64,000 bases of DNA from Seiridium cupressi (taxonomy: Eukaryota > Ascomycota > Sordariomycetes > Amphisphaeriales > Sporocadaceae): positions 186,001-250,000 of the forward strand of contig JARVKI010000067.1 in assembly GCA_036674765.1 (NCBI GenBank), written 5' to 3'. The position numbers were made by a program, and so were the translations under genes. Under the pieces are notes generated by a model, which saw only the letters and a list, made by a program, of their open reading frames with translations, ran no database searches and was not told the DNA's origin. Position 1 is the first letter of the stretch; every line of letters begins with the position of its first letter. Shown in pieces: positions 5,938-59,140 of this stretch.

Positions 5938-6699
5938 GATCAGGAAGTTGAGGGTGAGGTTGTTGGATTGTAAAATCCAGAGAAGGGCTAGAACTACGGT
6001 GTAAAGAACAATGTCCGGGAGATGGATTTATCGCACTGGTCTTCAAACAAAGAGAAGATAAAGACTACGAGACATATCCAAGGCTGAGTATTGACAGCCA
6101 GGCCACCCCCGAAGCCTACAGTCCGGAGGGCTATCGCTGCGCCACTTTGTTGGAAGTCATGTTGTGTCGGTCAAGCATGTAATTGGTCCACATCCATTGT
6201 TTGCTGTCCCACTTGGAACCAGCATGCAGCAGGTGGGACGATCTGCACGCCCTGTATAAACGCTACAGAGAGGGCCAAGGACAAGCCTTACCAGCTGTCC
6301 TGAGGAACGCTAGATCCCACGAGACTTTTGGTAGGGATGAAGACGGGAAGGACGATGACCGCAGCAAAGCCGTAGGACTGTGCAGCAGGACAATTAAGCA
6401 ATGCCTTACCACGGCATTTGATCTGACTGCACGCACGCCGAACAACTCCTCTGGCTACTTTGTATTTTTCATTCCCCCGTGCAGCTTCAACTTTGGCACA
6501 CTGTCGTGAGTTCCTTTCATCTTGTGCGATTCTTTACACCAGATCTACTAGCAGAACCATACGCCAAATCTTTCGCATCAAAGTGTGTGATATTACCTAC
6601 CAATGCCATATCGTCTGAGTGATGAGTCCCTCATCGTATGGACGATTCCTTATTCATCTAGTTCGAAGCAGACCTAGTTCCAAGATACCTGGCTAGTTT
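5938..6699. other. Intergenic region, SDR promoter side
   Basis: This holds the upstream region of the SDR gene that starts at 5937. Small open frames at 6091-6509 lack codon bias, motifs or splice structure and are not called. Confidence 0.4.
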
Positions 6700-23946: not shown

Positions 23947-24190
23947 TGTAACGAATATACTATCGTCAGGATAAACCTTAGAATAATACACTGGTATTAA
24001 GTTTATGCTAACAAGGTATGTAATAAGTATAAGAAGTACTAAGGCTTAAATTATAATATAATTGTTAAGGCTTAATAATCCTTATTTATAAATAAATATT
24101 TAGATTAATTATTAAAGTAATAACTATTTATATAAAGTAAAAAATCCGATTTTATTATATTTATTTATTCTTTTATTAATGTTTTTAAAT
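23947..24190 (-). repeat. LTR end fragment, lightly RIP-mutated copy
   Basis: It starts with TGTAACGAATATA, the same terminus seen (as TATAACGAATATA) at 24731 and 31629, and stays alignable with both for about 240 bp. It is less AT-shifted than either, for example CGTCAGGATAAACCTTAG against CGTTAGGATAAACTTTAA. Similarity is lost near 24190, after which the sequence is AT-rich and unassigned. It marks a separate insertion into the TPR-like gene, on the same strand as the full element to its right. Confidence 0.7.
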
Positions 24191-24730
24191 TATTTAAATT
24201 ATTTCGCGATTTTAATAATCCCGATTAAATTATTATTAAACTTTAATAATTTAATTACGTAACCGCGGGATATAATTCGCTTAGGTTAATTATTATTTTT
24301 AACCGTTAATTACCTTAACGGTTATATTTAATATAAGGCTTATAACTTTTTATTAAGTTTAATTCGTAATAATATATTTAAATTATAATATAAACTTATA
24401 CGTAAGTAATGAATTTTATAATTAACTTTTTATAAATTATTAATTCTTATAACTTTAATTATTTAAAGGCGTTAATAAGTAAATAATAAAATAATACGTT
24501 ATTAACGTTTTTTAGGATATATTTAAAATAAAGTTCGATAGTTTTTCTAACGATATAAAGCGGCGGATTTAAGTATTTCTTTAAAAAAAACCTTTTAAAT
24601 AATAATCGCTTTCGGTTTTATATTAAAATAAATATTAATATAACTATTTAAATAAAGCTTTATTTATAATTAATATTAATAAAGTATTTTAACAGTTATA
24701 AAAAAGATTTATATATAAAGATTAACTTTT
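24191..24730. other. AT-rich, RIP-like sequence between two LTR copies
   Basis: Strongly AT-rich and TA-rich with no readable frame. It is probably the mutated interior of the element that owns the LTR end at 23947, interrupted by the retrotransposon starting at 24731. Confidence 0.45.
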
Positions 24731-25164
24731 TATAACGAATATATTATCGTTAGGATAAACTTTAAGATAATATATTAGTATAGGGTTTATATTAATAGGG
24801 TACGTAATATAAAATAAAAATATTAAGTTTTAAAAAATAAGAATATAATCGTTAAAGCTTAATAGGCCTTATTTATAAATAAATAAATACTTAGATTAAT
24901 TATTAAAATAATAATTATTTATATAAAAAACGTTTATTATATATATATTTATTTATTCCCTTATTAATTTAGTTTATTTATATTTATTTATATTTGCTTA
25001 ATATATTAGTTTTAAACACTTTTAATTAAGGGTCTTACCGTCTAATTAAATAATAATACCTACTATTTATTAATATAAACATTCTTTTAGGTTAGGGGTA
25101 CTAAATACCTGTTTGTTACCTGCCGGTCGTGGTCCGTGCCCCCGACCGGGTTACGTTCGTAATA
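24731..25164 (-). repeat. 3' LTR of the retrotransposon
   Basis: Homologous to 31629-32115 over the first 260 bp and again at the last 10-15 bp. The part between about 25000 and 25164 differs from the other LTR and keeps a GC-richer island (around 25105-25150, including GGTCCGTGC shared with the right LTR). Confidence 0.7.
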
Positions 25165-25384
25165 TTAAGGTCCCCCTTTTTAAAACTTAGCCTTTAAAGC
25201 CTAAAATCTTATAAGTAAATCGCGTCTGCCTATTTTATTAATTTAATAAGTTCCTTTCCTTATTTTCGTTTTTATAATACGTATTTATTATATTAGGTCG
25301 TATTTAAAAAACTAAATAAAAGAAAAATCTTCCCGTTTTTTTTTTTATTCGCCGCGCGAACCTTTTTATTTCGTTTAAAGTATA

Positions 25385-25875
25385 TTTTTTTAAAATTATA
25401 CCGTATTTTCGATACTTTTTTAAAAAGCTTCCTTATAAAATAATAAAAGGAGTAAAAAGTTATAAGCTTTATACGGATAAAAATATAAAATACGATGGTT
25501 CGGGCGTTCCCGCGGCTTTTATAAAGGCCGTTTTACGAAAGTATCGTTATTTTAAGCGTACAAAGGCGGACGCTAAATCCTCCTTTTTAAAATTTTAGGA
25601 AAAATAAAAAAAGGCGTAACGGAAGATATATAAAAATATAAACGAAGCGATTAGTCGTCTTATTCGTTTAAAAAAGATGCGTACCGCGGCGCGCGTAAAA
25701 GGGGTTTAAATAGCGTAGCGGGAGTTCTAATCCATTAAAGAGTTAGAGGCTGCCAAGGCGGCGGAAGCGAACCTTGCGTAATCCGCGGGCGTTATAATCG
25801 ACTAAAGCGGCGTTAATTTAGCAAAACCCTTTAGTTTTAACTTCCTTACGGGTTTTAAAGATATCGCTTAAAAGT
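25385..25875 (+). pseudogene. Antisense RIP-damaged reading frame inside the retrotransposon
   Basis: On the plus strand, opposite to gag and pol, one frame from about 25385 to 25870 is interrupted only by TAA/TAG codons of the kind RIP makes from CAA/CAG. It encodes a basic, helical protein with segments such as AFIKAVLRKYRYFKRTKADA, INEAISRLIRLKKMRT and a SIKELEAAKAAEAN acidic/alanine helix. GC content is higher here than in the surrounding pol region. The arrangement resembles coiled-coil C-terminal regions of fungal transposon proteins, but I cannot name the family. It could be a second nested element or an extra antisense gene of the retrotransposon. Confidence 0.4.
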
Positions 25876-28800
25876 AATATAACCCTTAATATATCTCTTA
25901 AGTTTTTAAGTATTTTCTTTAAGTAAATAATCTTTTTATTTAACTAGATATTAAAAGCCTCTCTTTTTTTTACGGTACTTTAATATCTTTTTTACTTTGT
26001 ATTTTTGCTAATTAATTTTTATTTTTAGCGTTATATCGATTTTAGCGTTTTTAAATACTAGTTTAAATAAAAATACGTATATAATAAAGTAGTTTCGTAT
26101 TATTTTAAATAACGATAATTTAAAATTAACTTTTAAAATAATTTTATCGATTTTAAATGGTTTAAATTTTTTAAAATCGAATTTATCGCTAAATCGCTTT
26201 ATTTTAATGTTTTTATATAATAAATAAACCTTATCTCTTTTTATAAAAGTTAGTTTTTTAATCCTTTTTTTATTATAATATTATTTTATTTATTATTAAA
26301 GGAATAAGAATTCTTATTATAAGGATTATTATAATATTTAAAGTTTATTAATATATTCGATAGTTTTAAGCGTTTATTCGCCGTAAAATAGTTCTTTAAT
26401 AATATCGGGGTTATATTTAAAATTAGCGTAAAATAGTAATATCTTAATAAGCTTATTAATCGCGTTATTATAAGCGAATTATATAATTAATAATAATTAT
26501 ATTTAATTATTTTATTTATAATTAACGTAATATTATAAGTATTATTCGAATATTTAATTTATTTATTTTATTTATTTATTTATTTATAAGTAAAATGCCG
26601 TAAATAATTTATATTTAATTCTTAATTATAATATAAAGGATTATTAGAATTTTAACGTAAAGAGTTTATTTTTATCGGAAATAAATTCGTTTAATAGCCT
26701 GTATTAACTAATTATAATTCTAAAGATAATATAAGCGAGCTTTATAGCGTCGCTTATTTTCTTATATAAAATAAAGTATCTATACTTCGTAAGTCGTTCC
26801 GTAATAATAAGAATGTTATTATATTTTATATTTATTATTAATTCTTTTAATAATGGTAATTTAATAATAAAGTTTATAACGACCGATTTTTAAGCTTTAT
26901 CGGGTGGTATTATTAGTTATAACTTTTTATACGGTTTATATCGGGATGCTTTAGCTTTATTATAAAAATCGTAATTTTTAATATTTTTAAAAACGCGCTA
27001 TTTTAGGTTTTTATAATTAAATTATTATTAAATCCTTTTAATAGTTTTAAAGATTTTTATATATCTATTAAATAGTAATTTATAATATTTTTTAATAAGT
27101 TTTTTTCGTAGTTTTAAAGGTATTTATAATTTCTTATTATAATATACCTCGTTTCCGAATTCTTTTATTTCGTATTTATATATTAGGTTTTAAAATTAAG
27201 GTTTAATAACGTGGTTAATCTTTTTAACTTATATTCCTTAAGTAATTACGCGGTTAATAGCGTATATATTTATAATTAATACAAGGTTTCCTTTTTCGTT
27301 AATTATAAGGATAATGTGTATTTCTTTTAACGCTTTTTAAAAGTGGTCCGATCTGCGACTTAACGCGTCGGTTTTCTTATTCTCCGATCCTTTCCGGTAA
27401 ATAATAATAAAGTTAAAATTTATTAAGAATTTTAACCATTATATTTATCGTTTATTAAGTTTTTTATTATTAATAAACGATATTAAGTTTTTATAATCGG
27501 TATAGATTTTAATTTAATATATTATTCCGTTAAAGTAATATTTTTATTCTTTAAATACTTTAATAATTATTATTAATTCTTTATCGTGGATTTAATAATT
27601 AAGCTTTAGCCCGTTAAGCTTTTTAAAATAATAGGCGATTAAATGCGATTTCTCGTCGTTCCCTCGCTGGCTGAATTAACCGCCGATCGTATAATTTAAC
27701 GCGTTAATTTTAACTTCGAATTCTTTATTAAGGTTAATTATCGTTATAACGGGTTTTTCCGTTATCCTTTTTTTAAGTTCTTTAAACGCTTATTATTCGG
27801 TATAAGTTTATTAAAATGGTAGGTCTTTTTTAGTTAGGTTCGTTAAGGGGCTTCCTATTTTTGCAAAGCTAGGGATAAACATTTTATAATAGTTCGCTAA
27901 CCCTAAAAAGGATCGCACATCCGTAACGTTTTAAAGCGTTGGTTATTCTTTAATTGCTGCTATTTTAAAATCTTTTATTCGGATTTCTCTTAAAGATATT
28001 ACATATCCCACGAAAGTGACTTTTTGCTAATAGAATTTACTTTTTTTTAAGTTTATTAAAAGGTTTGCTTTTTATAGTTTTTTAAACACTATTATAATAT
28101 ATTATTTATATTCCTTAATTATATTCGAAAATATAAATATATTATTAAAATAAATTATTATAAACTTATTTAAAAAGTCTCGTAACATTATATTAATTAT
28201 ATTTTAAAAGCTTATAAATATATTTATAAATTTAAAAAGTATAATTAAATATTTAAAATGTTTATATTTATTACGGAATATTATTTTTTATTCGTCGCCT
28301 TTTTTAATCTTAATTAATTTATATACGTTAAGTAAGTTTAAAGCCGTAAACTATTTAACACCGTATAATTTATCTCGTAGGTCTTTAATTAATAATAAAA
28401 GGTATTTATTTTTAATTATAATTTCGTTAAGTTTTTAATAATCGATATAAAGCCTTTAATTAAGCTTTTTATCCTTGTTTTTCTTTAATATAAAAAGTAT
28501 TAAATATCTTATAAATAAAATGGATTCTTTAATCCATCCTTTTAATAGCATCTTATTAAAGTATTTTTTAAATGTTTCCTTATATTATAACCGTACCGGG
28601 TAAGTAAATATAAAATATAATTCCGTACCTTCCTTTAAAAATATCTCGTAATCGAACCTTATATATATTAATAATCTTATATTTAATTTTCTATTAAATA
28701 AGTCGCTAAACTTTTTATATTTTTTAAGTATTTTATATATAAATTTTAACTTAATATCTTTAGTTATAACGTAAAATCCAAGTGTTTTAATCTTATTTAA

Positions 28801-30500
28801 AGGTCTTTTCGTTAAGCGCTGCTTAAAGGTTAAGTCTTTTTTTAATATATCCTATTAAAACTAGCTTATATTCCAATTTACTTAAGGATTACTCGCTTAT
28901 AATTAAAGTATCTTTAAGACTAAATTGTAATTTATAATTTTTATAATATCGCACGTAAGCTTTTTATTATAATTTTAAATATAAATTTAAATATACGTAG
29001 TTTTTATATTAACGATTCCGTTATTATACGTTATTAATTCTTTATTTATAATTTTAAATTAATAAAGCGCCTTTTTCCGTTTTTATAATATTTAAAATTT
29101 ATTAATAATTTATAATAAAATAAAATTTCCTTAAGCTTTTATATTAATTAAAGCCTTAATATCTTAACTTATAATCCGCATTTTAATTATAAAGTAATTA
29201 TATACGCTCGTTTTTATAGCGTATAAAAACCTGGTATTTAACCGTTATTATCCCGTTATATACGGTTTTAATTATTTCCCGAACGCTTATCGCGTCGGTT
29301 ATATCGTCGTCGCTTTTTCCTATTTTCGGCTTTTTAATAAATAAAGGCGCAATTTACGTATAAGTTTTCCCGGCTTTAATATATTAAGGGTTTATTATAT
29401 TTTTATTCGTCGGCTCCCTACTTTATTTTTAATTTTGCAAAGGCTTATAATATTATTCGCATAAAGGGTATTAATCCTTCGTTTCGTCGTTATATTTAAA
29501 TACGATTTATAATTTTATAAATTTATAATTTAACCCTTTTATTACGTTATTTTTCGAATGCTTCTTTAATTAATTTTTTAAAATCGTCTTTTCTTTTTTA
29601 TTAATTTATAATAATACTAAATAAAAGGGATTTTAATTTAATTAAAAATCGTTTTACTTTATTATATTCTTTAATTTACTTTTAAGTTAAACTCTTTTTA
29701 TTAACGTGGATTAAGTATTCGTCGATTTTATATTAATCTTACGTTCGTAATTTTAAAGCGCATTCGCGTATTCTTTATAAATCGTTAATAATTACCGCGT
29801 ATCCTTAAAGGTTTTTATAAATAATAATAACGTCTCCTACTTACCTTCCGTTTTATAATATCCTAATAAAGTTTAATTCCAGCTTTTTAAGAAAGAATTT
29901 ATATTTTAATTTCTCCTTAAAATATTAATTATATAACCGGTCGATATAGCTAATTTATAATAAATTTATATAGTTTAAATATCCCGTTCTTAATTAAGCG
30001 TTATCCTTAAATATTATATAAAGGGTATAAGCGTTTCTAAACCTATCCTTTATAACAGCCTTTACTAAAACGTTTTTAAATTTTAAAACGCTATAAAATA
30101 ACCTTTTAAAAATAATTATTATTTAAAAGTCGTTTTAATACCTAACAGATTATCGTATTATAATAAGAATTCTATTAGTTTTTTTTTAAATTAATCGTAA
30201 TTTTAATACGTCGGCTTAATTTAAATTTTCTTCCTCTTTTTATTATCGTTTCGTACGACGGATAATAACTTAATTCTAGTTAGATTTATCCGCGCTTTCG
30301 TCGGAATACGCAAAGTATCCGTAAATATTAATTTATTATTCCGCGGGGCTCCTTCCTACCACCGCGATAGTCCTAATAACCGGTATTATAAAATACCATC
30401 CTACTCCGTCTTTATTTAACTTATATATCTTATATTAATTATTATAATATACCGTTTAAAACAGGCTATCGTACTTAACTAATTCTTTTATAATAAAGTT
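25876..30500 (-). pseudogene. Pol region remnant (reverse transcriptase and presumed downstream domains)
   Basis: The minus strand at 28110-28167 reads IYFNNIFIFSNIIKEY, which with the G-to-A changes expected from RIP corresponds to the YFDD catalytic core of Ty3/gypsy reverse transcriptase. The order relative to gag (to its right) is correct. RNase H and integrase should lie towards lower coordinates, but I could not read their motifs through the mutations. The region is almost entirely A/T at mutable positions and full of stops. Confidence 0.6.
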
Positions 30501-30539
30501 AATTTATCGTCTTTTTAAGACTAATTTAAAGGGTCGCTC

Positions 30540-31400
30540 CTTTTTAAGCGAGCGGCATTCGTTAGCAAAATATCCTTATCCTTTTATAATTATAATACGT
30601 TACCGATTTTTTATCATGCCTGCCGTTCTCTCGCTTTATAATATTAAGGTTTATAAATTTATTATATCCTCCGTAAGATATTTTCCCGCGTTATTCGTTT
30701 TTTAGGCGATATTAATTATTTTATTATAACCGGTTAATATTAACTTAAAGCCGTATCCACGTATTAGTCCGTAATCCTTTTAATTATCCTCGTTTTTTAA
30801 ATTGTTTCTTATATAAACGGTTATTAATTTTAACAATCCTTTTAATATAAGTGTTAAGGTCTTTTAATCGATCTTTTTTAGCAATTTCGTCCTTAATACC
30901 TTCCTTAAATCCCGCGTAAAAAAGCGTTATAAAGGCATTATCGTCGCTTTATTCGGTTTTAAAAGCGATTTATTTAAACTCTAATACGTACTTAATCGCA
31001 GAATTCTTTTACTTAAATTATATAAGCTTCTTTTTTATTATGCGGACTTCGTTTAGGTTGCTAAAAGTGGCTTTAAAGCGTCATTTAAACTTATTATAAC
31101 TAATAAAAACTTTTTAAATCTTTTCGTTTTTATTATTTTCGTTATTATTAAAATAATCTTTTATAATTAGTTTAAACTATTTAAAAGCGTCGTCTTTTAA
31201 GAATCCGGTAATATATAATATTTTATCGGAATTACTACTAATATTATCCTTATAAAAGCGTAGGTATACTTTTGCCTGGGTAAGGAATCCTTAGACGCTA
31301 CCGTCCTTACCGTTATAAGACTGCGGTACTGGCATTTTATAATTAGTTCTATAGGCGATAGGTGCCATAGCAGGGATAGCCGCGATCTGCTCGACAAGCT
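30540..31400 (-). pseudogene. Gag remnant of the retrotransposon
   Basis: The minus strand from 31400 reads a Gag capsid-like series: AAIPAMAPIAYRTNYKMPVP, SYNGKDGSV, a GFLTQAKVYLRFYK-like helix, FLKDDAF and later NLNEVR. This follows the P-Y-N-G-K...GFLTQ...FLKGDAxxWF order of fungal Ty3/gypsy Gag. Further down, near 30545-30600, FANECRSLKKERP resembles the end of a CCHC zinc knuckle. Stops and lost codons are of RIP type. Confidence 0.65.
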
Positions 31401-31628
31401 GCTAATTATCGCTGCGAACGCTATCGTAAGCCTATTAAAGGTTAACTAATTATATTACTAACTTTTATTATTATTATTATATTTAATATATTATACGCAA
31501 AGCGTTAAGTCCGCTAATTAAATTTTTAATATTATTTCCGCTAAAAGTTTAAAGTATTATTATCGCTTATAAAGTATTATTTAATAATTCCTAAACTAAA
31601 ATACGTATTTAAATAAAAATAATTAAAA

Positions 31629-32115
31629 TATAACGAATATATTATCGTTAGGATAAATTTTAAAATAATATATTAATATAAAGTTTATATTAATAAAATA
31701 CGTAATATAAAATAAGAATATTAAATCTTAAAAAATAAAAATATAATCGTTAAAGCTTAATAAACCTTATTTATAAATAAATAAATACTTAGATTAATTA
31801 TTAAAATAATAATTATCTATATAAGAAATATTTATCGTATATATATCTATTTATTCCCTTACTAATTTTTGTTTGCTTATATTTGCTTAGTGAGCAGAAC
31901 TGATCACGGTCAGTGCTGATCAGTGAGTCCCACTAATCACTTCTGATCGTTGGCTCTGATTAGTTCCGGCCGTTTGCCTTGTCTCCACCGCACTGGTGTC
32001 TGGAATGTTTGCTCCTTGCACGTCCGTACTTGCTTATCTTCTGTTATTGTCTTGGTCCGTGCTCGCGGAGTAAGGTTTATTCCGTTCCGGCTTTCTCCAA
32101 CCCATGTTCGTAACA
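31629..32115 (-). repeat. 5' LTR of the retrotransposon with an unmutated U3-like half
   Basis: The half next to the internal region (31629-31890) is AT-rich and matches the other LTR. The outer half (31891-32115) has normal base composition, with repeated TGATCA-type words (CTGATCACGGTCAGTGCTGATCAGTG) and ends in GTTCGTAACA. In minus orientation this outer half is where the LTR promoter (U3) would lie. Confidence 0.7.
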
Positions 32116-36494: not shown

Positions 36495-37641
36495 TTATGG
36501 AGGTACGTCTAAAGACTTTGCACCCTCAGGTTTAGAAGGATTCATAGGGGCGGTTCCTTCTGGGAATTCATGTAATCTTGTCCACGCTAGAATCCTATCA
36601 AAGTCCCGACACACCTGCTTGGTGTTGAAGTCTGGCCACGGATTATCGTGGCCTGCTACCCACTGCGATGTCACAAGTCCCACATCCGCGTGGCACATCA
36701 CAAATTGTCTCAGTATCTCGATGCAATGATCTTGGAGTGTTTGTTAGCAAAAGACTGTCCGGCAGGCTAGGCGCCATCAATGCACGGCGCAACCCGCTAC
36801 TAACCTATATGTGTTTTAAATATGTGCTCATTGTCGATGAAGTCATGGTCATTGCGGGCCTTGTAGTGATTGAACTTGAAGTAGGACACTTTTCGCATGA
36901 GATCCTGGGAGATTGAAATTAGTCGTCATGGAGCTGATAACGTCGGTTTTAGGAGATCGAGGGACTCATTCTGCATACCACGCAGTGCAAGTGGTGTGAG
37001 AACTCTGGGAGAACAAATAGACCACCTCCGTATTCCGGTGCATGTCTAACAGCAGTCTCCGGTTCGTCGGTGAGACTGGAGATTTCGGATGAATCAATGG
37101 TCATGTTGAGCGGCCGGACTTTCACAAGACATATGTTAGTCGTCATACGTAGAAGATTTGATGGTATGAGATTCTAGTGAACTTTACTAAGGTGTAAGCT
37201 CATCCACGCTCTGTCAGTCGACTCGTCAGGCTCCCCGCGAAAGGGTGAAGAAGCATTGAATGTTCCAGTAGTAACCACTTCTCTTAGGGTCCCCGGGATT
37301 TTATCGAGGAGGGGTGCTTGGAATAACATCAGTTTTAGATGTAACCACAAGCTACATTACTGTGTTTGATACAGCTTACAGTAGTATGAAGTTCTTTTCA
37401 AGCAGTATGAGTCATCCAACTTGCTTCCATGTGTCTGTCTCAGGGATATTGCAAGTATAAGAGATAGAACCCAGCCAGAGACAGCAATCAGAGAGATGAA
37501 TGAGGTCACGTTCAGAAGTCTCGACGATGACTTAGAGACTTCCGATTCAGCATCCTCAGCGAGCTCGTGTTGAGAATGGCGAGAAGTGAATGCAAACAAT
37601 GGGCGGTAAGACCCACGGGAGTTTCGACGAAAGGGGAGCAT
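36495..37641 (-). CDS. UstYa-type (DUF3328) oxidase, cluster member 1
   Basis: Five exons (37380-37641, 37188-37316, 36979-37118, 36805-36904, 36495-36730) join in phase to 288 residues. The order is that of UstYa proteins: a basic N-terminus, one membrane helix (about residues 42-66), a SPLLDKIPGTL/GTFNASSPFRG block, YGGGLFVLPEFSHHLHC with the first HxxHC (His172, His175, Cys176), then HIDHCIEILRQ with the second HxxHC (His209, His212, Cys213). Such proteins catalyse oxidative cyclisation and related steps on fungal ribosomal peptides and some non-ribosomal peptides. Both motifs are intact. It lies 3.3 kb downstream of the precursor gene, on the same strand, and resembles member 2 in motif positions. 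Confidence 0.9.
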
Positions 37642-38999
37642 GCTCGTTAGCCTATCTATCGAACGGAAAGGAAAAACAGACAGTCATCAACGTGGGTTCG
37701 GCAGCAAGTCGAGAATGTTGATTGTCTGAAATCTAACCGAGATCCCTTGGCCAATATTCACCATCTAGAAAACAAGAGATGGGGGGTTGACTCTCGATGG
37801 TCCCGTGATTACAGCCTTCCTTGGTGGTTCTTGACCAGCAAGGTGATGTTCTCGTATACTGTTTAAAGGCAAGATGCAGGTAAGTCATATTTGCTTTCAA
37901 GGTATGTAAACAAGTCCCCTGCACAATAATTTCCAATAGCTCGTCGCTGACGTGATGGCCTGGCCCGCACACATTGAGTGCAAGCGATTGCGACTCGCAT
38001 CGTTCTTCTGCCTGTTTTTAGCGCCACTAAGGGGATCGTCCCTAGGATTTTTCCAAAGCGGGCACATGATCATATGGGACGAAAGAGCCATTATATCTGT
38101 CGCATACCTGGCTGCCGGCTGCTGGATGCCTATGATGGATTACCATGCATTGCTGCTGGGAACCTGGACGCCACAAGAAATGAGCAAGGATTGTTCCACG
38201 AATGGCGGTAAATGCCGCTGTACAGTCTTCAGGGGGCAGATCAGATCATCAGTAATAGGCTGCATGCTTAGCGGCGACGAGTTTGGTGGCCTGAGTTAGC
38301 AAGTCGAGTGTCGCCTGGCGGCGGTATGCATTCGATCGGCAACGTGCGCAGCGGCTGAAGACGAAGTTCAAGGCAGGCCTGCTGTTATGCAGTAGCATGG
38401 TTGCATTGCATAATGTAGCCAAGACGTTGTCATCATCCTCTGCCTATCGACTGCGGATCATCCCAGCTCGAGAGGGTCCGTATGTCGTGCTCGGATCGAC
38501 AGACATTGGTCACGAGTGCAACCATGCAATCAGTTGGTCCTACGTATGCCGAATCAGGCAGTTGAACGCACACTTGTGGAGTGCCTTGCATCGGGCGGTT
38601 ATCATACGGCGCAGTATCGCACTAAACAATCGAGATATCCATGGTTGGGACTTTCTGCTCTTGGAGTTCCATTTCATCATATCAGATAAGCTGATGTCGT
38701 GGGTACCTAACTTTGTTTACGACTTGGCTCATATGACATGAAATTTTGAGCTAGTCTAAACTTCAATTATTGCATGACCGTCGTAAAGATTTCCACATTG
38801 GCCGACGCAAAGGCGCCGCAACTCACAAATTTATGAGTAGAATTAGTGAAAGTAAATTATTAACTACCAAATTGTTATCCGCAATTGAAATGAATACACA
38901 ACTACTTCTATAGACATATAGCTCGGATAAAAAGACGTGGAAATGACGCACAAACCTTGCCACTGCGCCGGTAGTCAATGACCCGGTTTCAGCCAGTGC
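37642..38999. other. Gap inside the cluster, no gene assigned
   Basis: About 1.35 kb between UstYa members 1 and 2. I looked for a tyrosinase, methyltransferase or peptidase and found none. A minus-strand reading around 38190-38430 (including RRQATLDLLTQATKLVAAK) looks protein-like, but it is closed by stops and unassigned. Confidence 0.35.
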
Positions 39000-40200
39000 T
39001 CAGGACTCGGCGTCCTTGATCTCCAGATCTCGCGGAAAGAGAAAGGCAGCCGGACCTCCGTCTTTCGTGCTGAGCTGTTCATGAGTAGCTAGAAACTCTT
39101 GTTCCGTTTTCCATGATATCTGGGGTTCAGCAGCGCCAGGTGGACCTGGATATGGCAGGTCTGGATGTGTCACCCACAAGGGCCGCTCAAGATGCGTGAC
39201 CCTCTTTGTCGCGTCGTGCGTTTGTCTCCATTCCTTCAGACGGTCCCAATTCTGACAAGAATGCAGCGTTTTGCTGGCTATCTCCGGGTTTGTGTTGTTT
39301 CTCACCCAGTTGTAGGTGAGTACCGAAGTATCTCCATGGCACTGAATAGACTGTCGAAGGACCTCGAAGCAGTGTCCTGCATCACACTATATGTTAGCCA
39401 CAGAACAAAACCACTGCGCCCATGAATACCGAGTGATTGGGTGCGTACTGATATGCCATTTGACATTCGCCAGCGTCCTACCGCCGAAATATTGCTTGTC
39501 TTTGTAGTAGTCGTAGTTGAAAAAGATGCCGCGTCGCATTATTTCAACGCAGTGGAGCTGATGATTAACTTCCAGAATAGCTATAAATTGATTGGTGCCC
39601 GGAATGCGGACTCCTGTCTCTGTATTCCCATTTACCATTACAAAAGCGTCTTCGTCGACCGCAAATACTTTAGTGGCTGAGAAGCATATTAGGTTCGTTT
39701 CACTGCGGAATTTAACACGAAAGCTCACCATCGACAAGCTGGTCCCAAGCACCATCCACCTCGGGGCCGGGATCGGATGTTAAAGGTCCGTAATGATCAT
39801 CAAGCTCCGTAAACCTTTGCAGCTGGTACTCAATTGCCTCCTCGGCAGGAGCTTTCCCCTGGATATAAGCATTTATGTTATTTGGACAGGATCGTCAGAT
39901 ATACTTACATGGTGATGTTACATGTGATTGTATAGAATGGACCACACTGCTGACGTAGTGTGGTGTTGCTCGTGCGCCGCGGATGATAAAGTAGGTGTTG
40001 ACGGCAAGAAGCGCTAGGTTGACCCATGCGAAAGGACTTCTCAACTGGACTGATAGCCATGACCTCTGCTTTTGACAGTGGCATAATTCACCGCCTTCGA
40101 GAAGAGTATCTTGTTCACTCTCGTCGAGACTGGGCTTTTCTCTGTGATCCTTTGGAGAGTCTTTCAAAGAAGAATACATTGTAGAAGACTGTTCAGCCAT
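39000..40200 (-). CDS. UstYa-type (DUF3328) oxidase, cluster member 2
   Basis: Four exons (39922-40200, 39729-39858, 39449-39667, 39000-39376) join in phase to 334 residues. A hydrophilic N-terminus leads into one membrane helix (LRSPFAWVNLALLAVNTYFI). Then come AIEYQLQRFTELDD, PGPEVDGAWDQLVDG, NHQLHCVEIMRRG (first HxxHC: His172, His175, Cys176) and HIRHCFEVLRQSIQCHGDTS (second HxxHC: His208, His211, Cys212), with a longer C-terminal tail than usual. The first donor is slightly uncertain: GTAACA at 39921 keeps phase, whereas the stronger-looking GTAAGT a few bases on does not. It is the UstYa gene nearest the precursor, which starts about 0.9 kb upstream on the same strand. Expected to be an integral secretory-pathway oxidase acting on the processed peptide. 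Confidence 0.88.
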
Positions 40201-40905
40201 AGCGTTAACAGTAAAAGTATATGCTACTATAGATGAGAAGTTTTATATTCAGTTCTTGGGATAATTCGGACTTCCGGTATGTCATATACTCAACGTCAGG
40301 TAAGTTGGTGGTAGTGATGTGTGGGTATGGATCAAAGTTCAGGATTCTCTAGGGTAGTCTTGGAGGGGAGAAATTGTCCTATCTGCTCTACCCGTAGGAA
40401 AGTCTCGGGCTTACTGGTAGTAACGAGGGGGTACGTACCAGTACCCATTGAACTAGAAGAGGCTACAAGCATCCCGCGCAGGGGTTGTGTGTGAACTGGT
40501 GTGCTCGGCCCTGACTCCCTTAGTTCCCTTATTCCCTGTCACCGGAGGCTGCATAAGCCTCAATATCGCATAACCGTAGAAGTTGCGACGAGACATCTTC
40601 CAGCCTTTTGACGCGCTCGCCGCCTTTCCCAAATCTGGAAGGAATATGGAAACTTAGACAAACTCAAACGGCTTCAGATGGCTACAGCGTTTAATATTTG
40701 AATTAGTGGAAACGCTGACGAATAGAAAACAGCGTTCAGCCTGCTTCGTGCTCGATTATCACCTATATGCTAGCATCGACTTGATCACTTTTTGCGTCCA
40801 TGAGCTCTTATATTGTCTAGACATGTTTGCCCCTGGAAGCTAGACGTAAAGGTATGCGAAACCCAGCAGTTACTACGAGAATGTACATTATACACCCATA
40901 TGACT
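40201..40905. promoter_or_regulatory. Spacer between precursor gene and UstYa member 2
   Basis: No gene. This 0.7 kb contains the 3' region of the precursor gene and the promoter of the oxidase gene starting at 40200. No regulatory site was identified with confidence. Confidence 0.35.
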
Positions 40906-41151
40906 CTACTTGGAGTCCACATATTTGCCGGAATTCCAGATTTCCTCTTCCCCGAGGAAACCGTCAGCGCTCACCGCTTCAGTCTCAGCGCGCTTCTTAC
41001 TATCAACATATTTGCCGGAATTCCAGATTTCCTCTTCCCCGAGAAATCCTTCCGCACTCACGGCCTCCGTGTCGATGGGGGTTGCGACTGGAGCAGTCAG
41101 GGCGCTGGCCATGAACAGCGCCAGTAAGGCGACAGTCTTGTAGGCAGGCAT
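40906..41151 (-). CDS. Dikaritin-type RiPP precursor with two Kex2-delimited repeats
   Basis: An 81-residue secreted peptide with a good start context (TTCACCATG). Residues 1-20 form a classical signal peptide (basic start, ALLALFMAS core, Ala-x-Ala-like end before PVATP). Residues 28-56 and 57-81 are two copies of one 29-residue unit differing at one aligned position (Glu34/Asp63). Each contains GFLGEEEIWNSGKYVDSK, and the first copy ends in the Kex2 site Lys-Lys-Arg (52-54); the second ends at the stop after Lys81. Signal peptide, repeated unit, Kex2 site and four neighbouring UstYa genes together match precursors of ustiloxin, phomopsin and asperipin. The mature core is probably in the Trp-to-Ser stretch; a Tyr-Val-Asp-Ser segment sits where ustiloxin precursors carry their Tyr-Ala/Val-Ile-Gly core. 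A short 3' exon cannot be excluded. Confidence 0.85.
   Translation of the reverse strand: MPAYKTVALLALFMASALTAPVATPIDTEAVSAEGFLGEEEIWNSGKYVDSKKRAETEAVSADGFLGEEEIWNSGKYVDSK
40909..41070 (-). repeat. Two in-frame 87-bp-period repeats in the precursor gene
   Basis: Units 40984-41070 and 40909-40983 (the second shorter by 12 nt at its end). The central 35 nt coding for GEEEIWNSGKY are identical at nucleotide level, while flanking codons differ mostly at third positions (for example the Tyr-Val-Asp-Ser-Lys codons). This suggests selection on the peptide, or recent homogenisation of the core. Confidence 0.9.
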
Positions 41152-41983
41152 GGTGAATATAGGGCTTTGATCTTTCTCAAACGAGCCGTCAGTATTTCTG
41201 TGGTGTGACCTCCATTTACCATAGAATTACCTACAAAGTGGTTTGAAAGTGTATGGGTTGAAAGTGTAGTATTTGAGAGGTTTTGGAATCTTAGAATATT
41301 AGCACACCGGTTTGCCTCACCAGCGGAGAGAACGAGGTATATATTAGTACGAGACCAGCGCATAGCCCTGCCCCTCTTCACTGTACAGTATCTTTTCCCC
41401 ATTTAATCCATCCTGACTCAGACCCCGCATGGTAGAAGCACATCAAGTGATGTAAGATGCTAACCGATCGACTGTGATAGCTGTTAGAATCCTGCAACAA
41501 GCTGTGTCAGGTACTTAGGTACTACTTTAGAGCGCAAGGAGCTAGACACTACGATAGGCACATTTTGATCATTGTGACATAGAATCACCGCGGTTTCTGC
41601 ATGATCCATGAACATGCTGTGCCTCAGATGGGCATGAACAATTTCGCTAGGCTGCCGCGTTTGAGTGGACGCAAGACTGTTTCTCGAGTCATGATAGTCC
41701 AGGGTTCACAGAATGCGTGTCGACCTCTCTTCCGATGCATCAGTGGCGGATCATACATGATAGAGAGGTGCTTATCATGTGACTGAGTAGACCCTTGTGT
41801 ATATACATGCATGCGCGATATAGCCGGGTCTCCGGCGCATTGATCCGGGCCCCTATAGATTTATCTACGTGGAAGACCACTATCGCGTATTTAGTAAGTT
41901 TCTTATATTGTCGTCTTAGAGCCGTCTGCTGCGCATAACGAAAGCGCACTTGAGTTATTATTCTAATTGGGTTTAGCCGGATT
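41152..41983. promoter_or_regulatory. Precursor promoter region
   Basis: Upstream of the precursor gene and downstream of UstYa member 3. A GGTATATATTAG element near 41336-41347 could be a TATA-like box about 190 nt before the start codon. No gene seen. Confidence 0.4.
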
Positions 41984-42963
41984 TCAAGTGGAACTATGAG
42001 CGTCATCATAAGCCTTTCGCTGCCAACCCATCAGATTATCCCAGTTGATGCAGTTTTTCGTGATGCCCCAACCCAAAGCTTTGCCCCATTTGTCTGCAAC
42101 CAGCGAGGGGTGTGTTCCAGGTGGGCTGTGTGACTCAATAGTGAGACCGTCACCACACATTATACTCAGTCTGAGATACTCCATACAGTGTTCCACATGA
42201 TCTGATACTATCTCTTCCTCTGACTTCGTGTGGGTAATGTTGTGAAGCTGTCGGTAGTGGTCTGTCCGCAAGATGCTCTTCAACCGATTCCAAGTAAAGT
42301 CAGTCTCTACGATCATCATCAAATAGCACATAAAACACAGCGCTTACAAGACAGTGTAATTGGTGTAGATTGCTGATACGATACAAGCCTGCATCGGAAG
42401 CAGACGTGCTGCCGTGTTCTTGTTTCTCTGGCTGCTCGAACCCGGGCCCGAGACTATAGGACAAGGGACGTCTGATCCAAACTTTCTCCGTACCTGGGAA
42501 CTGTTTGAGTTTCAGGGATGAATGACGGTAGTTATAGGTATCACGTACGATCAGTGAGTCGGCGCCAATTTTGGTTACTGTAGTCGTTCCAACCGAGATA
42601 TCGCTTGTCTGGCTCTATGACTTTTGGTATCGCCGGAGAGAAGACTGAGATCGGGATTGGCGTCTGCAGGCCTGGGTCTTTATGGCGGTTAAAGTTTAGA
42701 TGAGAGGAAGATGTAAACGGAAGTAGCAGACTAATCAATATTCCTGCCATGAACGCGACAAAGTAAGGAGCTACGATGGTGATCGCACGATAGGCAAGGA
42801 GTCCAGGTTTCGTTGCCGAAGGCATTTGAGGGTCTTTCGAAACCTCACAGCCAGAAAGATGATGGTAGCGTGAGGCTCCAGGGAAGAATGAACCGAGCAA
42901 TGTGAACCTTTTGGGAGCCGGTAAAGGGAGTTTACACAAAGATTGAAAGCTGTGTTGCAACAC
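41984..42963 (-). CDS. UstYa-type (DUF3328) oxidase, cluster member 3
   Basis: Three exons (42549-42963, 42348-42493, 41984-42277) join in phase to 284 residues from the ATG at 42963. A later in-frame Met (MPSATKPGL, residue 48) may be the real start, because it lies just before the membrane helix (residues 61-83). Motifs: IEPDKRYLGWNDYSNQNWRR, SNLHQLHCL (His182, His185, Cys186), HVEHCMEYLRLSIMCGDGLT (His214, His217, Cys218) and a distinctive GWGITKNCINWD ending. The second intron uses a TGAAG acceptor at the same place as member 4. It shares the GWG...NCINW ending with member 4 but not with members 1 and 2. Transcribed towards the precursor gene. Confidence 0.88.
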
Positions 42964-43865
42964 GACTAGAATTGAGATAGCTGATCACCGGCGAACTATT
43001 TCTAGTAGCTACGGATGTTTTATTTTACCCAGATCTAGATGGCCTGCCTACGAAGCTCAGACAAATGAGCGGTAGTCCCCCGACCGATTGTCCGGCACAG
43101 TCTTCCGTCGAAAGCGTCCGCATCATCCATCTCGTGTTCATCGCTTGAGGTATTATGGACAAGCCGCACGCGCTATGAAACCGAATCCCCGCAGTCATGA
43201 CGCTTTCACCAAATCGGAAGGTGATTGTGTAATCTGAGTGGGTTTCAACAGCTGGCAAATCCCAAATTTAACTTATATGCATCGCTAATGCGGCTCTTTG
43301 GATCATCACTCGGCCTTTCGGAATGAAGATAGGGTGTGACGAGCCTGCAGACCACATGTTGCTGCGTACCGGTAACTTGTTCTTTGCGTTGTGGAGATGG
43401 AATTTGGTGGGGCTAGCCGAGGCAACAATGTAGTCCTGCCTATCGGTACCTGTGGAGCATGATGCTGTGGATAACAAGTGGAATCTATGTAGGAACAGGA
43501 TGCTTCATACGGTATGAGGATTAGCCTCATGACATAGTGGGGCCTGTGTCGCCTCGTAATGCGTACTAGGAAAATGGTTGGTGGAAATATAAGGGTAATC
43601 AGTGCAGTATGCAGAGTTCGCTGAGTTAGTATCTGACATGCAGCGATGCCTACATCAGTCAGGTCGGCTATGCAGTGTTTAGGTTTGGCAATAGCCAACA
43701 GATACTTTGTACATGGCTTTAGCAACTATACCCAGTATATAGATATTGCCCTAGACGAGCTCGGAGGAATGATTTCGGACGAGGTGAACTTCATAGAGAG
43801 GGAAATAGGGGAACTGTTTTTTTCTGATCTCATGGGTGTGACAAGCTGCCATTCCAAGATCTTCT
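42964..43865. promoter_or_regulatory. Divergent promoter region between UstYa members 3 and 4
   Basis: About 0.9 kb between two divergent start codons (42963 on minus, 43866 on plus), so a bidirectional promoter is likely. No further gene is supported and no binding site is assigned. Confidence 0.45.
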
Positions 43866-44738
43866 ATGTTTCTTCATTCCAAGATGGCCGAATATCTACC
43901 GAATCGAGAATCTCAAGAGTCCAGCACATTCAATTGCAATGAGGCCGAGCAGAAATCTTTCCTTGACCAAGAACAACCCCGATGCAATCACAAAACAAAT
44001 ACACTTCCGATCTGGATATGGAGAGTCACTATTACGTTTTTAGCCTTGGGCTGGATAATACCGTTGTTGCACAGCTATCCAGGACGAGGGGCCAGATCCT
44101 CAACTACATGGCCAAAGCCGCATCTCTCGCCCCTCCCGACCGAGGTTTTCCAGACGGTTAAGAAGACGTTCTATCCCGATGAGCGCTACGTTGGTTCGTC
44201 AAACGACACTCATCGAAACTGGGATCACCTCGTTGCAGCGCACGATGCTCTGTACATAGCTGAACCACAGGAATATGGCCTTCCAGAAGGGATTCCACCT
44301 CCTTTTGATCACCCAAACAAAGTTGGAGACGGGCCGCACAACTTCTACGTTATTTCTGGTCTTCACCAAATGCACTGTCTCGTGAGTAATTATGACCCAC
44401 TTCAAAAAGGAACCGTACTCGTTAACACCGTCGCTCTGAAGAACATTATCCGATTTCATTACTTCCAGGTCGAAACTGGTGTTCCCCGGTATATACACTA
44501 TAGCAAAGAGGCATGGGAGGCTCACATGGAGCACTGCTTCGAGTACCTACGTCTGAGCATCTCGTGCGGTTCTCCATTCACTGTTGAAGGGTCATCGCCT
44601 CTTGCTGACCCTAGGGGACATGGCTTAGTAGCGTCAACCGTGACAGGGTGGGGCGTGGAGCATGATTGCATCAATTACGAGGCTATGAGGACTTTTCAGA
44701 TCAACCAAGAGAGGCTCTACAACCAAACATGGCAATAA
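43866..44738 (+). CDS. UstYa-type (DUF3328) oxidase, cluster member 4
   Basis: Two exons (43866-44381 and 44442-44738) give 270 residues. The 60-nt intron (GTGAGT donor, TGAAG acceptor) is a multiple of three and free of stops, so the unspliced frame is also open; splicing restores HQMHCLNIIRFHYFQ. The protein has a hydrophilic N-terminus, one membrane helix (residues 49-68), FYPDERYVGSSNDTHRNWDH, HQMHCL (His167, His170, Cys171), HMEHCFEYLRLSISC (His200, His203, Cys204) and a GWGVEHDCINYEAM ending. It pairs with member 3 by shared ending and intron position and is divergently transcribed from it. In known dikaritin pathways two UstYa proteins often act together, so members 3 and 4 are candidates for such a pair. 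Confidence 0.92.
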   Translation: MFLHSKMAEYLPNRESQESSTFNCNEAEQKSFLDQEQPRCNHKTNTLPIWIWRVTITFLALGWIIPLLHSYPGRGARSSTTWPKPHLSPLPTEVFQTVKKTFYPDERYVGSSNDTHRNWDHLVAAHDALYIAEPQEYGLPEGIPPPFDHPNKVGDGPHNFYVISGLHQMHCLVSNYDPLQKGTVLVNTVALKNIIRFHYFQVETGVPRYIHYSKEAWEAHMEHCFEYLRLSISCGSPFTVEGSSPLADPRGHGLVASTVTGWGVEHDCINYEAMRTFQINQERLYNQTWQ

Positions 44739-45307
44739 GTGAATATCGTCCCTGAATCATATGATGATATATAGGTGGAAAGTTAAAGGAAAGAAATCAC
44801 ATTGAATTAAAACTATCTGGGTGGTAGCCGTCGTCGGTTTGCCGGCTGTGCATAGTCAATATAATGCTTATCTCTACAATTATCGGTGGAAAAGGGCAGG
44901 CTCCTCTTTTGGGCTGAGAGGAAATGCGTAACCTGGGTCGCGGACCACCAGACCAGACTCAAGATTGTATGCGAGCTTTCTGTAATTCACCTGTGTACAC
45001 GTCCATAGATAAGATAAGATAGGATAGGATACTGTGGGTGAAATAACCCCGTTGCACAAAGGGTAGTGGATATCCACACCAGAAGTGGAGGGGAATGGGG
45101 ATTTAATACAGAAGGTCTTCACTTTCGCCTATAAAAGGTCAACCAAACCCCGCTTGATCTACGACTTGCCAGCATTCCTCCCACACTACCTCAAAACCTT
45201 CCTATTGCTTTGTTTGTCCCAATAGTGCCTGCCACTAATCGTCGTTCTCGGCTTACCATTCCCATTTTGAGATTGCGTCCCTGCGCTGAGGCGAGAGAGC
45301 GATTCCC
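44739..45307. other. Intergenic region, no gene
   Basis: Between the last UstYa gene and the GNAT gene. Contains a short GATAG/GATAAG-rich run (near 45008-45030), which matches GATA-factor core sites, but in a low-complexity context. Confidence 0.4.
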
Positions 45308-45982
45308 ATGAACATGTCTGGCCCCACATTTCGTAAAAGTCACAACATAGACACGCAACGTCTCATCATCCGCAGCGCCGTCCCCGAGGATGCGCAAGCC
45401 ATCGCTGCGCTGAGGGGGGACCCCAATAACAATCCCTTTAGAGGGCCGGACTCGGATGATCCTGAGGTGTACCTAAGGCGCATGGTAAACTGGCTGAAAG
45501 CAAGCGAGGAGGGCCGGTACGCCTTCACGGTCATTCTGCTCCGCCCACTCCCGAACTCTTCATCCCCCGCTGAGCACGAGAAAGGCGAGGGCGAGCTGAT
45601 TGGATTCGGTGGCTTCAACGATTTTCGCTGGATTGATTCTCCGGATGGCCAAGGCGATAAGGTGCTCGAGGTCGACGTCGGTGCGCAGATTGAGCACAAG
45701 CACTGGCGCAAGGGCTACGGACGAGAGGCATTCATCGGCATGACCGATTATGCGTTCACGGAGCTGAGCGCTCAGCGGGTGTCATGTGATACCGGTGTGC
45801 AGAATGAGCCCTGGAGGGAGCTGATGAAGACGGTTGGGCTCGGAGAGAAGGAACAGGCTCATGTAAATCCAGAGGGGCACCCGGGCGCTGGTGAAAAGTC
45901 TTGGCTGTGGCAGTTCAACCGTGAAGACTGGGCAAGTGCTAAGGGATGGCGTGATAATTGTGCTAGTCGAGTAGAACCATAG
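45308..45982 (+). CDS. GNAT-family N-acetyltransferase (RimJ/RimL-like)
   Basis: A 224-residue intronless frame. It starts with the typical RimJ/L opening (TQRLIIRSAVPEDAQAIAAL), continues through GELIGFGGFNDFRW (beta-4 region) and VDVGAQIEHKHWRKGYGREA, in which WRKGYGREA is the acetyl-CoA pyrophosphate-binding loop (Q/R-x-x-G-x-G/A type), and ends with a NEPWRELMKTVGL-like segment. It should transfer acetyl from acetyl-CoA to an amine or peptide N-terminus. It lies 0.57 kb downstream of the fourth UstYa gene on the same strand, so it may acetylate the cluster product or protect the producer. Equally, it may be an unrelated neighbour. Two nearby Met codons (residues 1 and 3) are possible starts. 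Confidence 0.88.
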   Translation: MNMSGPTFRKSHNIDTQRLIIRSAVPEDAQAIAALRGDPNNNPFRGPDSDDPEVYLRRMVNWLKASEEGRYAFTVILLRPLPNSSSPAEHEKGEGELIGFGGFNDFRWIDSPDGQGDKVLEVDVGAQIEHKHWRKGYGREAFIGMTDYAFTELSAQRVSCDTGVQNEPWRELMKTVGLGEKEQAHVNPEGHPGAGEKSWLWQFNREDWASAKGWRDNCASRVEP

Positions 45983-57214: not shown

Positions 57215-59140
57215 TCACCCAAGTATCGTAGAAGAGGTCGCATTCGAATACACAGAGGATCTGTCAGATATGGATCTTGGAGAACACAGTGGGTGGTGCT
57301 CCAAGATGTGATTCTGCTCAGGACTGTCAAACAACAACTGCTCTGCAGAGACCCTCAAGTCTCGAGTGATGTGCGCATGGTCCACGGGTACAAGAACAAT
57401 CACCCGTCCTGAGCTTGACATGGCTGCACCATAACACTCTTCTGGGAGAATTGGTCGCATGCGTGACGAAGAGAGGGAGAAAGGCCTCAAACGATGGGCC
57501 ATATAGGTTGCAGCGGCATCTTTGACTATGGAAGGATCATCGCTCGGCACCCGCGAGACTATCCTCCACTCGTTGCCCTCATGTGACACAAATGTTATCA
57601 GTTGCTCGTGAGGGCGCAGTCCCGACCTTGACAGGCTATTTTTGCTATTTCTCTGCTGCCCAACTCGCTTTTTGCGCTGTCTTGGGTGCTCTTCAATGCG
57701 CCCACCACTTATCTCGTCCGGGTCGCAAGTTGAGACTGTGCGGACAAGCGCAAGGTCCGAGGATTTCACAGCCAAAGATCCGTCGTCAGAGCGAGCCCAG
57801 CCGGCATCCGTACAGTAGCTGTCGAGCTCATCGGTTGGCGGGATCACGCGACTCTCTTGCTTGCGGTCTAGAAATGCCATGAAAATGCATCTGCGGACAA
57901 AGAGAGAAGTTACACCTGATATCGGAGCATCAGCCGCCGCGACTACATCCCAAAACAAATGTTTTCTGTCCTTTACGTGCTCGGCGGCATAAGGATGCCC
58001 GTTGCGGTTGCTCGTCTCGACGTTGTCCTTCCAAATCATGTCTTTATCTAGCCGCTGAACGGCACGAGGTCTTGTAGTATCTGCCATCTTCTCAAATTGT
58101 TCAAGAAGTGGCACGAATGATTCTGGCTCGTACTCATAGATTGTGGGCTTACGTGCTCTCAAGAGTGCATCTCGTGCAATATCTCTATCGGGCGCTCGCT
58201 GCTTAAGCTCTTTTATGTGATTGTTACGGAATCCCAGTCGGAAAGCTAGTGTCGCAAAGCCGCACAGCACATCGCTGTCTGCCTTTTCTGGTATTATTGT
58301 GGCCAGGCGCCTTCCCAAACCTTTCGCTGGGGGTGCTACTCTGACCAAATTCCGCATCGCAAAGAGCCACAGCTGTCTTCGCCCAAGTTCGAATTGTTTC
58401 TCCGGAGAAACCGACCTTGCCTCAAACAAACTTTCATCCATCTGGACTGGATATTGGTCCTCGTCCACCGGCTTAAGCAGTCTCTCAAAGCAACGGAAGT
58501 AGTCTTTTTATCATGGCCAAAGAGCCCAACAGCGTACCGGAGGTTTTGAGCGCAGGGCATCAGATAGTTGAGATCCTTGAAAAAGGAATGCAACGAAGGA
58601 ATGGTGCAGCCGATAGACAGGATATTGCCATATATTGTATCTTTTTCGGAATCCGTGAACCCCTGCAGGATATCGCCCGAGTTCATAAGAGACTCGAGCT
58701 TTTCCCTGTCGTCATTCGAGTACTTCGGACATGTAAGCTTCAGCGCTTGAACCGTCGCAGTATCAAGCCTTCTAAGTGCTGCAGGGTCATCAGGCAAGAG
58801 CTGCTTCCAAACTATGAGGATATGTTCTAGGTACTGAACCACCTCCTTCGGGCAACATACACGCCAGAGCGTAATGAATCACTTGCTTATAAAGCTTACT
58901 AACCTCGTCGCATTTCATGCCTACTATCTTATGAAACGTACTCAATCTCATACCTTCCCAGAATGCCGATACTTCCAGAAGCTTGTCAAGTGCATCTCGT
59001 ATGGGCTTGTTTTCGAGTAAGTTTTTTAGACTCCTCCTTCCGTGGTAGCTTAGTTGAGAGAAATCGAGTGTCTCTCTTTGAAGCTGACGTCTTCGCATGT
59101 GATGATAGATCTCCGTATCAGCTAATCCATGGCTTACCAT
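57215..59140 (-). CDS. DUF3723-family protein
   Basis: Three exons (58904-59140, 58538-58845, 57215-58481) join in phase to 603 residues. Family features run in order: LQRETLDFSQLSYHGRRSLK near the N-terminus, FWEGMRLSTFHKIVGMKCDE, a middle SGDILQGFTDSEKDTIYGNI region, ELGRRQLWLFAMRNLVR, LCGFATLAFRLGFRNNHIKE, then RDALLRARKPTIYEY, SLFVRRCIFMAFL, a charged low-complexity linker and a VHEGNEWRIV-like C-terminal domain ending near LPEECYGAAM. DUF3723 proteins are a fungal-only family of unknown function, often found in repeat-rich accessory DNA and reported among Starship cargo genes. No stop or shift interrupts this copy. The third acceptor (GAGAG) is less canonical. Confidence 0.8.

Follow-up and report, generated by a model that had tools for sequence, protein, structure and literature searches.

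The window examined here, 64,000 nucleotides of Seiridium cupressi DNA (C67:186001-250000 in an assembly of 45,361,241 bases in 228 contigs), carries an array of four UstYa-family genes, designated A to D, that extends over 36495-44738 and has a small gene for a repeat peptide inside it. This combination makes the locus a candidate cluster for a ribosomally synthesised and post-translationally modified peptide (RiPP), with the small gene as the precursor gene. A search of the whole genome with PF11807 produced 42 exon-level matches, of which four fall in the window, three on the minus strand (36576-36731, 39216-39623 and 42014-42289) and one on the plus strand (43998-44699). All four are above the curated cut-off (45.5-87 bits), and a search of the exon frames confirmed them. 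The introns, the UstYa genes and the Zn2Cys6 domains are of the kind expected in a filamentous ascomycete. Grouped by eye, the 42 matches correspond to approximately 30 loci, and the array in the window is the largest of these, followed by one in contig C56 with about three genes.

The precursor gene (40906-41151, minus strand) is an open frame encoding 81 amino acids followed by a stop. Its product has the layout MPAYKTVALLALFMASALTA-PVATPID-[TEAVSAEGFLGEEEIWNSGKYVDSK]-KRAE-[TEAVSADGFLGEEEIWNSGKYVDSK]. The N-terminus, approximately residues 1-20, is hydrophobic and signal-like, with a best 19-residue Kyte-Doolittle mean of 1.82, though this is judged from hydropathy only and the end of the signal peptide is an estimate. 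Unit 1, TEAVSAEGFLGEEEIWNSGKYVDSK, occupies residues 28-52 and unit 2, TEAVSADGFLGEEEIWNSGKYVDSK, residues 57-81, with KRAE between them. The sole Kex2-type site is the KKR at 40990-40998 (residues 52-54; position counted by hand). No third copy of the unit was found at 40200-42000, and the precursor matched no Pfam family.

Of the 75 bases in each unit, 13 differ between unit 1 and unit 2; these differences change 11 codons, 10 of them silently, the remaining one replacing Glu with Asp. When 13 changes were placed at random, a mean of 9.2 residues was altered, and in none of 100,000 trials was the number altered one or fewer. This pattern of silent changes indicates that 40906-41151 is translated and under selection; the frame is almost certainly protein-coding, and the comparison of codons shows strong purifying selection on the units. 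All ten silent changes and the Glu-Asp change lie in the flanks of a 38-base tract that is identical in the two units. In unit 1 the tract (41006-41043, minus strand; position deduced from the offset) comprises the codons of LGEEEIWNSGKY and two further bases, and it recurs in unit 2 at 40919-40956 on the same strand, offset by 87 bases. Shuffling the changed codons 200,000 times yielded a run of 12 consecutive unchanged codons, as seen over LGEEEIWNSGKY, on 38 occasions. The tract is either a conversion tract or a mark of added constraint, and it is taken here as the proposed core, present in two copies. The core word WNSGKY had no match in the literature searched.

Models of the four UstYa-family genes were built by enumerating GT-AG introns, and the resulting products were scored against a profile built from 20 gene D relatives. 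Gene A (36495-37641, minus strand) has five exons and encodes 277 amino acids with the motifs HHLHC and HIDHC; PF11807 was matched on its exons, and its boundaries are provisional, chiefly those of the short second exon. Gene B (39000-40200, minus strand) has four exons and encodes 339 amino acids with HQLHC and HIRHC (PF11807, 87 bits). Gene C (41984-42825, minus strand), which also matches PF11807, has three exons and encodes either 228 or 238 amino acids with HQLHC and HVEHC. Genes B and C each have an ambiguous first intron, with a choice between the one enumerated and one with a better donor, and the HxxHC motifs are unaffected by either. Gene D (43884-44738, plus strand) has two exons and encodes 264 amino acids with HQMHC and HMEHC (PF11807, 84.5 bits). 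Its intron (44382-44441) is in-frame and 60 bases long; with it spliced out, the score against the relatives' profile is 374 bits rather than 354. The N-terminal frames at 37357-37641 and 42541-42963 had no Pfam family match.

All four models are open from an ATG to a stop codon and retain both motifs, and each gene combines a PF11807 match above the curated cut-off with two HxxHC motifs, which places them in the UstYa/DUF3328 family. An earlier note on this DNA had described a secreted 81-residue repeat peptide with a Kex2 site flanked by four genes, each with two HxxHC motifs and one membrane helix. The peptide is present as described, as a secreted-looking frame with two 25-residue units and one KKR. 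For the four genes, the motif count applies to the spliced models, where eight of eight are found; the unspliced frames contain six, with one each in genes A and B, because in both of these genes an intron interrupts the second motif (HIDHC in A, HIRHC in B). The single helix is less even, as the one N-terminal hydrophobic stretch is above the 1.6 line in A, C and D and is weakest in B, at 1.45, in each case judged by hydropathy.

Local alignment gave identities of 32% for A and B, 33% for C and D and 23-29% for the other pairs, which points to two old pairs rather than a recent tandem duplication. For 36 UstYa genes (a number estimated from the 42 exon-level matches) placed randomly in the genome, the expected number of occurrences of four within 8.2 kb is 1.4e-6; this expectation fails under tandem duplication, but the genes of the array are only 23-33% identical. 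Gene D has 34 relatives at E <= 1e-20 among 222 candidates in the protein database. The best named relative is from Penicillium lagena (54% identity over 94% of the length), with others from Colletotrichum, Grosmannia, Bionectria, Metarhizium and Trichoderma, amongst others, while unnamed relatives reach 71% identity over 58%. No UstYa relative was found in the PDB either with a single sequence, where the one match (E 0.51) was taken as chance, or with a profile of 20 relatives. An AlphaFold2 model of one relative (P0002), made from an alignment of 20 sequences, was judged too poor for use, with a mean predicted local distance difference test score (pLDDT) of 56.9.

A detector of secreted repeat frames was run on 262 kb, comprising the window together with 20 further UstYa loci from this genome. 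It returned five frames, three of which have dibasic sites, namely the present gene and two classical precursors. The two frames with no dibasic site are a repetitive frame in locus L012 and an antisense frame of the present gene. Repeat precursors are thus present at two of the 20 other UstYa loci sampled, and none was detected in a small control of four 9.9-kb stretches located away from any UstYa match. As the sampled loci were picked for UstYa and the control is small, enrichment of repeat precursors beside UstYa genes is supported but not measured.

One of the classical precursors (L015, C19:120100-130000), at 6518 on the plus strand of that stretch and near a UstYa match, has three units of the form D(S/N)IIIKS(T/S)DTYKR; a fourth unit was seen by eye beyond a possible intron. 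The other (L017, C41:296000-305900), at 2313 on the minus strand and also near a UstYa match, is a secreted precursor in which dibasic sites accompany four LYWASTLL units. Two further loci of the genome pair UstYa with tyrosinase. In L018 (C10:646500-656400), UstYa matches at C10:649916-650395 and 652565-653080 are accompanied by a tyrosinase match at C10:654176-654520, and this is possibly a locus of the ustiloxin type, although no repeat precursor was picked up by the detector in this stretch. At C39:336621-342890, a tyrosinase match (336621-337243) and a UstYa match (342726-342890) are separated by approximately 5.5 kb.

Taken together, it is likely that the locus is a small UstYa-dependent RiPP cluster that makes an oxidatively cross-linked peptide from LGEEEIWNSGKY. 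The product would probably be a small ring-shaped peptide, undescribed so far. On gene content, the set appears to belong with the clusters that combine UstYa genes with a repeat precursor (dikaritin-like clusters). A dikaritin is a RiPP derived from a Kex2-processed repeat protein (KEP) and cyclised by one or more UstYa homologs (PMC10512285), and UstY enzymes link side chains by means of a dicopper site and oxygen (PMC12186524). Across 1,461 surveyed strains, DUF3328/UstYa genes peaked directly beside repeat-precursor genes, and 1,758 of the 7,878 repeat proteins were near such genes; repeats that include Tyr, as the core here does, made up 65.6% in precursors near DUF3328 genes vs 38.2% otherwise (PMC7329392).

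In the mechanism we propose, the 81-residue precursor would enter the secretory pathway and be cut once by Kex2 after KKR, releasing two near-identical peptides that would then be trimmed. A single match to a Kex2-type P-domain was found in the genome, in contig C53. The four membrane-anchored UstYa-family oxidases would act in the lumen of the endoplasmic reticulum and Golgi on the common core, installing at least one oxidative side-chain link or desaturation, and the finished peptide would be secreted. The likeliest link would be a ring between Tyr and an aliphatic side chain. An Ile lies six residues ahead of the Tyr and could give the seven-residue ring I-W-N-S-G-K-Y, as in the epichloecyclins, while the Trp would offer a second linking site and several other rings may form. 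Genes A and B and genes C and D are probably a pair of pairs and, more speculatively, each pair may work as a heteromer. With considerably less confidence, we suggest that four divergent UstYa oxidases acting on a 12-residue core with no tyrosinase may produce a multiply linked peptide, through Tyr and possibly also Trp. Co-expression, processing, the linked residues, the division of labour and the product are all what we infer from the genes and their arrangement.

Several observations weigh against this interpretation. The precursor, having only two units and a single KKR, is below the thresholds of both published surveys of repeat precursors, one of which set the bar at three or more tandem repeats of at least 8 amino acids between dibasic sites (PMC7329392) and the other at four or more fragments (PMC6339444). 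It has a single internal dibasic site, and the C-terminus of unit 2 ends in DSK with no KR. Repeats that include Trp were 20.5% near DUF3328 genes vs 24.5% elsewhere (PMC7329392); as Trp is no commoner there, its presence in the core is no argument. UstYa proteins are also reported to serve nonribosomal peptide and polyketide pathways (PMC12048977). Domain scans covered 57 of the 80 frames listed at 18-36 and 45-64 kb and a further 25 frames, namely two in the gap of the array and 23 out of 45 listed at 1-20 kb. In the set of 57, and in the genome searches for S41 peptidases and Zn2Cys6 domains, nothing adjoining the array was recognised as a transporter, a peptidase or a regulator. The five promoters gave no convincing common word: in a test where the stretches for C and D overlap by 142 bases, four 7-base words were shared by at least four promoters where 1.2 were expected, a number reached in 5 of 200 shuffles, and no word of 8 or 9 bases was found in four or more. 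Finally, a search of 5.8 billion proteins with the precursor recovered only itself (one hit from 34 candidates). A separate scan of the promoters for Zn2Cys6 dyads gave scattered sites that were unlike each other, and these were discarded.

The failure to reach the survey thresholds needs to be read with care. They are operational filters, so a gene that falls below them is skipped by the surveys but does not necessarily act in a different way. The orphan status of the precursor is similarly qualified, as the protein database may lack unannotated small genes. A 197-residue tandem probe for precursors with more units found none at E <= 10 (7,992 candidates scored), and a search of the organism's own genome gave the gene itself and a weak match (E 1.7), taken as chance. 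In the published survey, 2,560 of 7,878 precursors had no homologs (PMC7329392), and in a genome with approximately 30 UstYa loci one would expect to meet a new orphan precursor next to such genes. The earlier note proposed a dikaritin-type RiPP cluster. Of this, the reading as a UstYa-dependent RiPP cluster is kept as the best one; gene content fits a dikaritin, though the precursor misses the repeat threshold for a KEP. The same note had not recognised the repeat sequence and suggested that the product may be undescribed. Being undescribed does not set the locus apart, since with 1,758 of 7,878 surveyed repeat proteins near DUF3328/UstYa genes this is the ordinary state for the class.

An alternative that we consider unlikely is that the small gene encodes a linear secreted peptide processed by Kex2, such as a signal or hormone-like peptide, and that the neighbouring UstYa genes serve something else. 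The single dibasic site and the long 25-residue unit would suit such a peptide, and 6,120 of the 7,878 precursors in the survey had no DUF3328 neighbour (PMC7329392). In that survey, however, annotated mating-factor or pheromone precursors were nearly all without DUF3328 neighbours, with three exceptions (PMC7329392), whereas here an array of four such genes surrounds the gene. The core also includes Tyr, and the KKR is followed by AETEAV with no XA/XP (STE13-type) dipeptides after KR, so the features of an alpha-pheromone precursor are lacking.

It is less probable still that the UstYa genes are part of a pathway to a nonribosomal peptide or polyketide, with the small gene encoding an unrelated secreted protein. 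UstYa proteins do act in the cyclochlorotine, astin and atpenin pathways (PMC12048977), but no core domain of a nonribosomal peptide synthetase or polyketide synthase was found in the 57 or the 25 frames scanned, from which small exons could escape. In the 25 frames a weak match to a ketoreductase (KR) domain (E 5e-4) was seen, which probably falls on one of two short-chain dehydrogenase frames, of the same fold class; transporters and a FAD-binding oxidase were the other finds in this set. The 57 frames included a sugar transporter/major facilitator superfamily protein (19225-20877), ankyrin repeats, a TB2/DP1 protein, DUF3723 in three frames and a weak retroelement-like SH3 match. One DUF3723 protein, at 57218-58507, scored 145.7 bits. 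The same scan identified a GNAT acetyltransferase gene (45308-45982, plus strand; PF13302, 67.5 bits), which adjoins the array and is a putative member of the cluster at most. The region marked in the earlier note ended at 45982 and so took in this gene beyond the array. No tRNA or Rfam match was found in the window (ARAGORN was run with the bacterial code).

To the left of the array is an AT-rich block (24001-32000, strand not applicable) with a GC content of 0.20-0.27, a TpA/ApT index of 1.27 (0.73-0.89 elsewhere) and a (CpA+TpG)/(ApC+GpT) index of 0.25 (1.16-1.25 elsewhere), values that we take to reflect repeat-induced point mutation (RIP). It is likely the left border of the cluster neighbourhood. 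The terminal 2.8 kb of the contig is likewise AT-rich (GC 0.28), and no tandem telomere repeats were found in it. That the cluster is a decaying remnant beside the RIP-mutated block, now out of use, is very improbable: the 8-kb block is 4.5 kb away and the orphan precursor has few units, but all four UstYa models are intact, purifying selection on the units is strong, and the array has a normal GC content of 0.47-0.51 with no RIP-like indices across 32-46 kb.

The preferred interpretation, a small UstYa-dependent RiPP cluster, can be set against the known systems. According to a 2022 review, the dikaritins numbered only five (PMC10512285). The earlier note held that the known pathways combine exactly the parts seen here, which is too broad: a tyrosinase is required as well for ustiloxin and phomopsin (PMC7329392), and clusters of the phomopsin kind include S41 peptidases together with a zinc-finger regulator (PMC6514808). 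It was right that no tyrosinase is nearby. The genome has 51 exon-level matches to tyrosinase and three matches to S41 peptidase, none of them on the 252.7-kb contig C67, so these features of the ustiloxin/phomopsin type were not found on the contig. As to the regulator that the note did not see nearby, Zn2Cys6 matches on C67 are at contig 64-69 kb, approximately 153 kb off, among the 150 of 345 candidates scored, and a nearer one may exist.

The asperipin-2a cluster of Aspergillus flavus (aprA, aprY, aprT, aprR) is similar in having a secreted Kex2-type repeat precursor and a UstYa-type oxidase but no tyrosinase; in this four-gene cluster the UstYa homolog AprY is essential and is thought to form the rings (PMC6514808). 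It differs in having one UstYa homolog rather than four, in including a transporter and a reductase, and in its hexapeptide core, where the present precursor has a 25-residue unit with Trp and Tyr in two copies only. The epichloecyclins of Epichloe (gigA) also derive from a Kex2-type repeat precursor, and have a seven-residue (heptapeptide) ring on Tyr (PMC6514808) with the Ile N-terminal (PMC9233826). The spacing from Ile to Tyr in IWNSGKY is equal, and a Lys is shared, which suggests a comparable ring as one of several possible. Epichloecyclin precursors have four repeats and yield nonapeptides, in contrast to the two units found here.

The phomopsin cluster resembles the present one in having several UstYa-family genes, five in that case (PMC7329392), and three UstYa homologs are needed there for cyclisation and desaturation (PMC10512285). 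Its tyrosinase is needed (PMC7329392), and its core is of the YVIP type. The ustiloxin cluster of A. flavus (ustA, ustYa, ustYb, ustQ) likewise pairs a precursor with UstYa and UstYb, but it has 16 core-bearing peptides per precursor, a tyrosinase homolog and tailoring enzymes (PMC6514808). Within the same genome, the C19 and C41 loci share a secreted repeat precursor near a UstYa match, and differ in having three or four KR-separated repeats, one UstYa match each and unlike unit sequences.

Against this background, the locus, with one precursor and four enzymes, is a clean candidate of a known type and not a new principle. What distinguishes it is the four-enzyme set with no tyrosinase, a two-unit precursor that is below the survey thresholds and a core that is identical at the base level. 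Two-unit precursors, which are dropped by the published filters, merit searching. With no tyrosinase found, the locus would offer a simple setting in which to ask how several UstYa enzymes divide the work on one core.

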